Assembly (NCBI GenBank): GCA_026418035.1
Contig: JAOACC010000105.1
Coordinates: 1 to 34,545 of the forward strand
Direction of reading: 5' to 3'
DNA: 34,545 nucleotides
Source of the DNA: a bacterium
GTDB taxonomy: Bacteria; DUMJ01
Shown: positions 1,493-8,290 of the stretch, one piece after another
Position numbering within the stretch: the first letter of the stretch is position 1
How the letters are laid out: each line of letters starts with the position of its first letter
Program-made: the position numbers and the translations under genes
Notes under the pieces: model-generated
Database searches by the model: none
Told to the model about the DNA's origin: nothing
Seen by the model: the letters and a program-made list of their open reading frames with translations, nothing else

Positions 1493-2728
1493 ATGCGGAT
1501 AGGACTTCCAATTAAAGTGGTAATAATTATAGCGTTAGTAGGTTTGAGTGTATGGACCTTTATGAGGTATTCTTTGAAGCTGGGACTAGACTTACAAGGT
1601 GGGGTACATTTGGTATTTGAAGCCCAAGATACTCCTGAAGTAAAAGTGACTGGAGATACCCTTAATAGAGTTCAGGCTATCATAGATTCTAGAGTAAATC
1701 AGCTTGGTATTACAGAGCCAATAATTCAAAGGGAGGGAGAAAGGAGATTAGTAGTAGAACTTCCAGGATATCAGCAAGACCCTCAGTCTGCTATAGATCT
1801 TATAGGTAAGACTGCCCTTTTGGAGTTTAAAGATACAGGGACCAAGTATGTTGAAGAAGGAACAAAGTTAATCGATGCCCCTATTATACTTACCGGGGCA
1901 GACCTTAAGGATGCTAGGGTTGGTTATGATCAGTATGGAAGACCTGTAGTTGAAGTAGAGTTTAATCCAAAGGGAGCGAAGATCTTTGCTGAATTTACAA
2001 AAAAGAATATAGGAAAGTATCTTGCCATAACATTAGATAGTGTTGTTATAAGTTGTCCTGTAATCCGTTCTGAGATACCAGATGGAAAGGGTCAGATAGA
2101 GGGTAACTTTACTCTTGATTCCGCAACTTAATTGGCGGTGCTTCTAAGGGCTGGTGCCTTACCAGTTCCCTTAGATCTTATAGAGATGAAGCGTGTAGGT
2201 CCCACCCTTGGTAAAGATACTATAGATGCCAGTATAAGGGCAGGAATCATAGCGGTGATTCTGGTGATGGTATTTATGCTTATCTATTATAGATTCCCTG
2301 GAATTATAGCTGATATAGCACTTATTGTTTATGTTGCCCTTTTGATAGGTTTAGTTTCTGCTCTTAGGGCTACCCTTACATTACCAGGTATTGCTGCACT
2401 TATAATGAGTGTAGGTATGGCTGTAGATGGAAATGTGATCATATTTGAGAGGATAAAAGAAGAGCTTAGAAAAGGAAAATCTTTAATGGCAAGTATTGAG
2501 GCAGGATTTAAAAGGTCTTATGCGCCAATTTTAGACTCTCAGATAACTACACTAATAGCATCAGCAGTTTTGTTTTACTTTGGAACTGGTCCTGTAAGAG
2601 GTTTTGCTGTGATGCTTGTACTTGGGACTGTGATAAGCTTATTTACAGCTGTGATAGTAACGCAAATTCTATTCCAGCTTTTTGAACGTTTAAGAGTCAT
2701 TAAAAGCGCTAAGATGTTTGGGATATAG
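1493..2728 (+). pseudogene. secD: SecD protein translocase subunit, reading frame interrupted by an in-frame TAA
   Basis: SecD works with SecF at the membrane to pull secreted proteins through SecYEG using the proton-motive force. The first part (1493-2131) gives TM1 and the periplasmic P1 region, including GLDLQGGVHLVFE. The second part (2132-2728) gives the remaining membrane helices, with VGPTLGKDTIDAS and VGMAVDGNVIIFERIKEEL. The two join without loss of frame: ...FTLDSAT, stop, LAVLLRAGALPVP..., where SecD proteins normally read straight through. Only one codon is affected (TAA at 2129-2131; a CAA Gln would restore it). The gene starts at an ATG behind AGGAGGT. The second part could start only at the TTG at 2132, which has no usable ribosome binding site. 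This could be a sequence error, a real lesion, a split gene or readthrough. Family identity is certain; functionality is not. Confidence 0.85.
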
Positions 2729-2737
2729 GAGGAGCCT

Positions 2738-3742
2738 ATGGGATACTTTGAGAAGTCTAAGGTAAACATTATAAAATATACATCTCTCTGGTTAGGAGCT
2801 GCGGTAATAGTTATTGTTCTTTCTTTGCTATTATTCTTTACAAAAGGGCTCAATTGGGGATTAGATTTTGTTGGAGGAACTTTAATAGAGTATAGATTAG
2901 GAAAACCTTTCGATAATGTAGGAGAAATAAGACCATTACTTACCGAATTTAACCTAGAGAAGACATTTATACAGAAGACAGAAGAGAATGGTGTTATTAT
3001 TAGGGCTAAAGAGTTATCCAATAAAACTAGAGAGGCTATAACTAAAAAGCTCTCTGAAAATTTTAGTGGTGCAGAACTTGTCCGCCAAGAATTTATAGGA
3101 CCTGTTATAGGAGCTGAACTTAAGAGAGCTGCTATTATAGCAACTGTCCTTGGATTGATAGCTCAGGTTATATATATAAGTGTAAGATTTAAGCCTGATA
3201 TGGCTTTGGCAGCAGATATTGCTCTTATCCACGATATATGTCTTGTTATATTAGCATTTATCCTTACTCAGAAGGAGATAAATACTCCATTTATAGCTAT
3301 ACTTCTTACAGTTGTTGGTTATTCTATAAACGATACCGTTGTTATATTCGATAGGATTAGAGAGAACTTAAAACTCAGACCTAGAGATTCAAGGGAAACT
3401 TTCCCAGAACTGGTTAATAGGAGCTTATTAGAGACCCTTACTAGAAGTGTAAATACAGTCCTTACTACAATAATTGCGGTATTGGTGGTATATTTCCTTG
3501 GTGGCTCTGCTATAAAAGACTTTGCCTTTGGGCTTGCGGTTGGAATAGCAACTGGAGGTTATTCGTCTATCTTTATAGCTGCACCAGTATTAGTCCTCCT
3601 TAGGAAGAGGGAGTGGTTAGAAGAGGAGGAGAAGCTTAAAAAAGAGTCTATATCGACACCTCCAAGTGTGACCAAGGTTATTGAGACTCCTCAGAAGCAG
3701 GTTAATCCAAAGGCTCCTTCGGTAAGGAGGAAAAGGAGGTGA
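2738..3742 (+). CDS. secF: Protein translocase subunit SecF
   Basis: SecF partners SecD in the Sec holotranslocon. The 334-residue protein begins with a hydrophobic helix, then the SecF-type motif LDFVGGTLIEYR, a small periplasmic region, and a block of membrane helices. That block contains VVGYSINDTVVIFDRIRENL, the conserved transmembrane stretch involved in proton-driven motion. The C-terminal tail is lysine- and arginine-rich (RRKRR at the end). ATG start with AGGAG upstream, 9 bp after the SecD frame ends. The frame is intact, which makes the break in secD stand out. Very sure of identity. Confidence 0.96.
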   Translation: MGYFEKSKVNIIKYTSLWLGAAVIVIVLSLLLFFTKGLNWGLDFVGGTLIEYRLGKPFDNVGEIRPLLTEFNLEKTFIQKTEENGVIIRAKELSNKTREAITKKLSENFSGAELVRQEFIGPVIGAELKRAAIIATVLGLIAQVIYISVRFKPDMALAADIALIHDICLVILAFILTQKEINTPFIAILLTVVGYSINDTVVIFDRIRENLKLRPRDSRETFPELVNRSLLETLTRSVNTVLTTIIAVLVVYFLGGSAIKDFAFGLAVGIATGGYSSIFIAAPVLVLLRKREWLEEEEKLKKESISTPPSVTKVIETPQKQVNPKAPSVRRKRR

Positions 3743-5710: not shown

Positions 5711-6218
5711 ACTAGCTAAGTTTATAAGAAACATACCGGATTTCCCTATAAAAGGGATACTTTTTAGGGATATTACACCACTTCTTAAGAATAGAGATGC
5801 ATTTAGGTCTGCAATATCAATGTTAGCTGATAATTTTAGAGACCTTGGCGTTGATGTGGTATCTGCTGTTGAAGCTAGAGGCTTCATAATAGGTGCTCCT
5901 CTAGCATTAGAGTTATCCGCAGGCTTTGTGCCTATAAGAAAGCCTGGTAAACTACCGTATGAGAGTATTAGGGAAGAGTACGCTTTAGAATATGGGACGA
6001 ACGTATTGGAGATTCATAAGGATGCTATTAAACCTGGCGAGAAGGTCCTAATAGCTGATGACCTTATTGCCACAGGTGGAACAGCTATGGCATGTAAAAA
6101 TCTTATAGAGAGATTGGGAGGCAAGGTAGTAGGTTTTGCCTTTCTTGTTGAACTTACAGAATTTAAGGCAAGGGAGCAACTGAAAGGTTATGATGTCTAT
6201 TCCCTTTTGAAATTTTAG
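5697..6218 (+). CDS. apt: Adenine phosphoribosyltransferase
   Basis: Converts adenine and PRPP to AMP in purine salvage, in the cytoplasm. The start matches the family (IRNIPDFPIKGILFRDITPLL), and the PRPP-binding loop VLIADDLIATGGTA is near residue 120. The end, GYDVYSLLKF, is also typical, so the TAG at 6216-6218 is the natural stop. The 173-residue length is normal. GTG start inside the recJ 3' end. The downstream rel coding signal begins essentially at the apt stop, in the frame one base back. Confidence 0.96.
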   Translation: MEIVELAKFIRNIPDFPIKGILFRDITPLLKNRDAFRSAISMLADNFRDLGVDVVSAVEARGFIIGAPLALELSAGFVPIRKPGKLPYESIREEYALEYGTNVLEIHKDAIKPGEKVLIADDLIATGGTAMACKNLIERLGGKVVGFAFLVELTEFKAREQLKGYDVYSLLKF

Positions 6219-8290
6219 AAAAGTTTGATGAAATTGGTAAGAATCTTATAGTATCTGCCTATGAATTTGCCCTTTCTGCTCATAATGGGCAGAAGCGTAG
6301 ATCAGGCGAGGAGTTTTTTGTTCATCCGTTAGAAGTGGCAAAAATCCTCTCTAGTATGGATGTTGATGCAGTTACTATAGCATCTGCACTACTTCACGAT
6401 GTAGTTGAAGACACACGTGTATCTATAGAGGAGATAGAGAAGAGATTTGGTCAAGAGATTGCTACATTAGTTGATGGTGTAACAAAACTTAGTAAACTTA
6501 CCAGCTTAAGTGGAGAGGAACGTCAAGCGGAGAACCTCCGTAAGATGTTTTTAGCAATGGCAAAGGATGTCAGAGTAATCTTTATAAAACTTGCCGATAG
6601 GCTTCACAATATGAGGACTCTCTCATATCTTCCTTCAGATAGACAAAAGATAATCTCTAAAGAGACTTTAGATATATTTGCCCCTCTTGCCCATAGACTT
6701 GGTATGTGGAGAATAAAGTGGGAACTTGAGGACCTTAGTTTTAAGTATCTAGAACCTGAAAAGTATAGGGAGATATCAAAACTTGTTGCCAAGACTAGAA
6801 AAGAGAGAGAAGAACACATACAGGAGGCTATATCTATAATAAGGTCTAATCTTGATTCTCTAGGAATAAAGGCAGATATACAGGGAAGGCCTAAACATCT
6901 GTATAGTATCTATATGAAGATGCAAAGGGACAACCTCACATTTGACCAGATCTATGACCTACTTGGAATTAGGGTTATAGTGGATTCGACTAAGGACTGT
7001 TATACTGTTCTTGGAATCATACATTCACTTTGGAAACCTATCCCTGGAAGGTTTAAGGATTATATAGCGGTTCCAAAGTCTAATATGTACCAAAGTCTTC
7101 ATACTACCGTTATTGGTCCTAGGGGTGAACCTTTAGAGATACAGATTAGGACGTATGAAATGCATAGGATTGCCGAGTACGGTATAGCAGCACATTGGAA
7201 GTATAAAGAGGGTAGAACTGATCAGGATTTTGACATAAAGCTTTCCTGGCTCAGGCAACTCCTTGAATGGCAGAAGGATATGCAGGATGCTAAAGAGTTT
7301 GTAGAACAGGTAAAGGTAGACCTATTTGAGGATGAAGTTTTTGTATTTACCCCAAAAGGTGATGTTGTTTCTCTTCCTAAGGGGTCTACACCTATTGATT
7401 TTGCCTATCGTATACATACAGAGATTGGTAATAGATGTGTTGGTGCCAAGGTAAACGGTAGGATAGTACCACTAGACTATAAACTCAATAGTGGAGAGAT
7501 AGTTGAGATACTTACATCTAAATCTGCTACTCCAAGCCTGGATTGGCTCTCTTTTGTAGCTACTACTTCTGCAAGAAACAGGATAAGGCAATATTTTAAG
7601 AGATTACAGAGAGAAGAGAACATATTAAGGGGTAAGGAGATTTTAGATAAAGAGCTCAAGAGGATACAGGGTGACCTCCCTGATAAGATGAAGGAGCTTG
7701 ATTGGGCACCCCTACTTGAAGCCTTTGAGCTAAAAGACCCTGAAGAGCTCTTTCTTGCAGTAGGAAATGGAGAGATTACTCCACAGCAGATATTCCAAGT
7801 ATTACAGAAGAGTACAAAAGAAGAGAAGATCCTAAGTTTACCTAAGAAAGAAGAAAGTACAGGTGTGTATGTTGATGGTGCAGATAATCTCCTTATAAGA
7901 TTAGCAAAATGTTGTAGTCCATTACCTGGTGATGAGATTATAGGTTATATATCTCAGGGAAGGGGAATTACCGTTCATAGGAAAGAATGCACAAATATAA
8001 AGAATCTACCTAAAGAGAAATTAATAGGGGTTCGCTGGCATGCGGATAACATACACAAATTCAATGCAAGAATAGATGTATATGCAAGAGATAGGGTTGG
8101 TTTACTCAAAGATGTTTTGACCGAGATCTCTAATCTTGGTAGTAATGTTTATGATGCAAGGGCAGTGGTGAAAAATGGTAGGGTAAATATTTACATAGTA
8201 TTGGATGTTCAGAATATACATCATTGTGATGCTATTTTAAGGGCTATAAGAGGAGTGAAGGATGTTATCTCTGTTGGGAGGCATACATAG
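6212..8290 (+). CDS. rel: Bifunctional (p)ppGpp synthetase/hydrolase Rel; no canonical start codon in frame
   Basis: Makes and degrades the alarmone (p)ppGpp in the stringent response. Domains in order: HD hydrolase (LLHDVVEDT), RelA/SpoT synthetase with RFKDYIAVPKSNMYQSLHT, TGS (FVFTPKGDVVSLPKGSTPIDFAYRIHT), a zinc-finger-like region (AKCCSPLPGDEIIGY) and C-terminal ACT. The RFKD motif is the form found in bifunctional enzymes rather than synthetase-only RelA. The ORF track starts at GTG 6335, which would delete the conserved HNGQKRRSGEEFFVHPLEVA, including the first metal-binding His of the HD domain. That stretch is encoded in frame upstream but has no ATG/GTG/TTG. I start provisionally at ATT 6212. 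An alternative is ATG 6193 behind AAAGG, which enters this frame if one T of the TTTT run (6205-6208) is skipped or spurious. Confidence 0.9.
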   Translation: MLEKFDEIGKNLIVSAYEFALSAHNGQKRRSGEEFFVHPLEVAKILSSMDVDAVTIASALLHDVVEDTRVSIEEIEKRFGQEIATLVDGVTKLSKLTSLSGEERQAENLRKMFLAMAKDVRVIFIKLADRLHNMRTLSYLPSDRQKIISKETLDIFAPLAHRLGMWRIKWELEDLSFKYLEPEKYREISKLVAKTRKEREEHIQEAISIIRSNLDSLGIKADIQGRPKHLYSIYMKMQRDNLTFDQIYDLLGIRVIVDSTKDCYTVLGIIHSLWKPIPGRFKDYIAVPKSNMYQSLHTTVIGPRGEPLEIQIRTYEMHRIAEYGIAAHWKYKEGRTDQDFDIKLSWLRQLLEWQKDMQDAKEFVEQVKVDLFEDEVFVFTPKGDVVSLPKGSTPIDFAYRIHTEIGNRCVGAKVNGRIVPLDYKLNSGEIVEILTSKSATPSLDWLSFVATTSARNRIRQYFKRLQREENILRGKEILDKELKRIQGDLPDKMKELDWAPLLEAFELKDPEELFLAVGNGEITPQQIFQVLQKSTKEEKILSLPKKEESTGVYVDGADNLLIRLAKCCSPLPGDEIIGYISQGRGITVHRKECTNIKNLPKEKLIGVRWHADNIHKFNARIDVYARDRVGLLKDVLTEISNLGSNVYDARAVVKNGRVNIYIVLDVQNIHHCDAILRAIRGVKDVISVGRHT

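Follow-up and report, generated by a model that had tools for sequence, protein, structure and literature searches.

A lone in-frame stop codon in a constrained secD gene, probably an isolated consensus error or minority variant in a draft genome

The secD gene within a 34,545-nucleotide stretch of bacterial DNA (hereafter, the window) is interrupted in frame by a single TAA codon. We consider this stop to be probably an isolated one-base consensus error, or a minority variant, in a draft assembly that is itself probably metagenome-derived, judging from its fragmentation and from the metagenome-assembled status of a sister genome. The gene is whole in both available congeners, and its constraint shows no sign of relaxation.

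Results

The secD frame occupies positions 1493-2728 of the forward strand, and the TAA lies at 2129-2131, corresponding to codon 213, where it is preceded by FTLDSAT and followed by LAVLLRAGALP without any frameshift. The upstream part (1493-2128, 212 codons, 96% identical to the congener G001) encodes TM1, the GG motif, the N-terminal portion of P1 and most of the P1 head (Pfam PF07549, PF21760 and PF22599). The downstream part (2132-2728, 198 codons plus the true stop, 88% identical to G001) begins with TTG and encodes the end of P1 together with the SecD_SecF_C membrane domain (PF02355). The Pfam P1-head domain spans the TAA, scoring 99.9 bits with the upstream half alone and 124.7 bits when read through. 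The read-through protein is identified as SecD by TIGR01129 (429.6 bits; cut-off, 244.4) and also matches solved SecDF structures, namely the fused Thermus thermophilus SecDF (3AQP) and E. coli SecD (5MG3), with the same domain order and sequence similarity over the whole length; it differs from these in the stop at codon 213 and in the arrangement of secD and secF as separate genes. One unbroken chain with TM1, P1 and TM2-6 is encoded in the sister species and is broken here at codon 213. The initial annotation, which had described an in-frame TAA splitting secD beside an intact secF, holds on both points, as the frame is continuous across the stop and the neighboring secF (2738-3742, forward strand) matches TIGR00966 and is preceded by a strong Shine-Dalgarno sequence. 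The secD gene is single-copy in this genome.

The genome comprises 2.13 Mb in 168 contigs, with 97.6% completeness and 2.5% contamination, and was compared with its only two congeners used here, G001 and G002. The resulting three-species genus looks isolated: all other genomes returned as relatives share the domain level only, and the closest SecD from outside it has about 50% identity. A comparison with sister genomes, set beforehand as a check, revealed an uninterrupted secD in both congeners, with identities of 92-93% at the protein level and 85-86% at the DNA level; the codons at the site of the TAA are CAA and CAG, both encoding Gln, and a single substitution suffices to convert CAA to TAA. 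In an alignment of 109 SecD relatives, read as amino-acid letters only because a codon tally is unreliable for loci in reverse orientation, none has a stop in the codon-213 column, which instead contains Asp, Asn, Glu, Gln, Arg, Thr, Lys and others. That a sense codon occupies this place in the two sister species and in every one of the 109 aligned relatives makes the stop more than a matter of chance. A second SecD flagged with one TAA in genome G013 was rejected, since that TAA is the normal end of the gene, and a chimeric contig was likewise rejected on the basis of a similarity to both sisters that remains level across the junction.

Pairwise dN/dS was approximately 0.02 upstream of the stop and, for each of the three species pairs, 0.08-0.10 downstream; these values were alike in comparisons with and without the species of the window. 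Lineage-unique changes in the downstream half amounted to 21 synonymous and 8 non-synonymous in the window species, 27 and 8 in G001, and 26 and 5 in G002; the three sets are similar, and no excess of amino-acid change was observed in the window lineage. Signs of a decayed pseudogene were absent from secD, with dN/dS as in the sisters and no second lesion. As the downstream constraint equals that of the sisters, the stop is either unreal or very recent, and secD was fully constrained up to the very recent past, if not up to the present.

To place secD in a wider context, we set approximately 350 kb of the genome, including the window, against approximately 770 kb of G001. Among the resulting 136 orthologous ORFs (approximately 42,000 codons), only secD was clearly interrupted internally. 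Each of the other flagged ORFs seems to be an antisense frame, a frame lying across a cluster of tRNA genes, or a case of a stop located 5' of the likely start. No other broken conserved gene was found within the window and no other pseudogene among the 136 ORFs. Since secD is the sole clear break, there is no sign of recoding or of a generally error-ridden assembly.

A relA/spoT gene apparently lacking its N-terminus (6219-6335) was considered as a second break and rejected, as the open frame extends back to 6194 and both sisters conserve it. This start region (6194-6335) overlaps the end of apt, and the frame holds no ATG, GTG or TTG between the upstream in-frame stop and the GTG at 6335. 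G001 and G002 conserve codons 6212-6334, with 14 of 19 and 18 of 23 changes, respectively, falling at third positions, and an ATT at 6212-6214 that overlaps the TAG stop of apt is retained in all three species. An ATT start for relA, or some coupling between apt and relA, is possible.

Discussion

A consensus error or minority variant is the explanation that we favor as probable. A C-to-T type change would have created the TAA from a Gln codon in a secD that is ordinary and still constrained; the TAA would then most likely not be the working state of the lineage, the organism would make normal full-length SecD, and a sense codon would be expected in the reads at 2129-2131. The two intact congeners (CAA and CAG), the lack of a stop in 109 relatives, the unrelaxed constraint and the 168-contig draft all support this explanation. 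Of all single substitutions, 4.9% create a stop codon; if the consensus error rate is taken to be 1e-5, a genome this large would carry roughly one nonsense error. Our literature search on nonsense error rates in metagenome assemblies returned nothing directly usable, and the weight placed on assembly error draws on a general expectation for draft metagenome-type genomes. By contrast, no other error was found in the sample, which speaks against this explanation and indicates that the assembly is generally accurate. The closest parallel is a lone nonsense substitution, whether consensus error or young pseudogene, that hits a conserved gene in a draft assembly: one base is affected, the frame is otherwise intact, the sisters are whole and the constraint is unrelaxed, and no difference from such a case was found.

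A real and very young nonsense allele is possible but less likely. Translation would then end at the TAA, leaving a 212-residue fragment that contains TM1 and most of P1 without TM2-6, and full-length SecD would be lost except, at most, for traces made by near-cognate tRNA-Gln misreading UAA. One substitution is enough to produce such an allele, and the strain may withstand the loss temporarily, SecDF being an accessory factor whose depletion in E. coli causes cold sensitivity and export defects without being immediately lethal (review, PMC8082313). In E. coli, tRNA-Gln has been reported to misread UAA (PMC5289835), and the genome examined here carries two ordinary tRNA-Gln genes, although misreading of this kind could yield only trace amounts of SecD. 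However, the constraint is not relaxed, the sample contains no other pseudogene and the downstream secF is intact, so that a nonsense allele, if real, could be only very recent.

Any working use of the stop appears very unlikely, and none of our tests lent it support. The initial annotation had listed four options, a base error (CAA to TAA), a nonsense allele, readthrough and a functional split, of which our tests favor the first two and disfavor the last two. A functional two-piece SecD cut within the P1 head, in which termination at the TAA would be followed by a restart, unaided by a Shine-Dalgarno sequence, at the neighboring TTG and by assembly of the two chains, we regard as very unlikely. 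The TTG at 2132 directly adjoins the stop, both halves are constrained, and reinitiation is known to work across very short distances (PMC10666635) and to be possible at UAAUG without Shine-Dalgarno pairing (PMC9955659). However, the candidate starts at TTG 2132, GTG 2138 and ATG 2186 show no Shine-Dalgarno pairing (+0.4 to +1.8 kcal/mol), in contrast to the strong duplexes at the starts of secD (-11.1 kcal/mol) and secF (-10.2 kcal/mol); these energies agree with the earlier suggestion that the downstream half lacks a ribosome binding site at its TTG. Two third-base synonymous changes 3' of the stop create the possible starts at 2132 (TTA to TTG) and 2138 (GTA or GTC to GTG), and the sisters carry TTA, without a stop, in the position of the former. 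From G001 to this genome, TTG replaces 12% of TTA Leu codons and GTG replaces 133 of 819 GTA codons, and because such synonymous changes are common, the TTG and GTG are unremarkable. The cut, moreover, falls inside the folded P1 head domain, and no split relative was found among the sisters and the 109 relatives. Termination-reinitiation gene pairs (translational coupling) likewise place a stop and a possible start side by side, yet secD here differs from them in having no overlap, a weak TTG start without a Shine-Dalgarno sequence, and no conservation. A local promoter for the second half of secD was also considered and is unsupported, as the region contains two promoter-like sites, fewer than in shuffled sequences.

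Programmed or suppressed readthrough, in which UAA would be read as Gln in some passages, we place lower again. No frameshift separates the two halves, and reading the codon as Gln would yield the residue present in the sisters, but UAA followed by U, the context found here, is the bacterial terminator described as most efficient (PMC5289835), and in each species two RF-1 family genes, of 348 and 359 aa, represent the release factors RF1 and RF2. None of the 42 tRNA genes, a set lacking some expected tRNAs, carries an anticodon pairing with a stop, and neither a further in-frame TAA in conserved genes (136 ORFs) nor conservation of the stop in relatives (109 sequences) was found. Reassignment of TAA to a sense codon throughout the organism, for which the secD site alone speaks, has an effectively negligible probability and is already contradicted by stop usage and by the lack of any other internal TAA in the 136 orthologous ORFs, as TAA is the commonest stop in the sample, ending 138 of 305 long ORFs, and ends 32 genes at the identical place in both species.

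The stop carries little biological weight; it shows that when a conserved gene in a draft genome contains a single in-frame stop, sister genomes and reads should be checked first. Were the stop real and used, it would mean that SecD is able to work as two chains.
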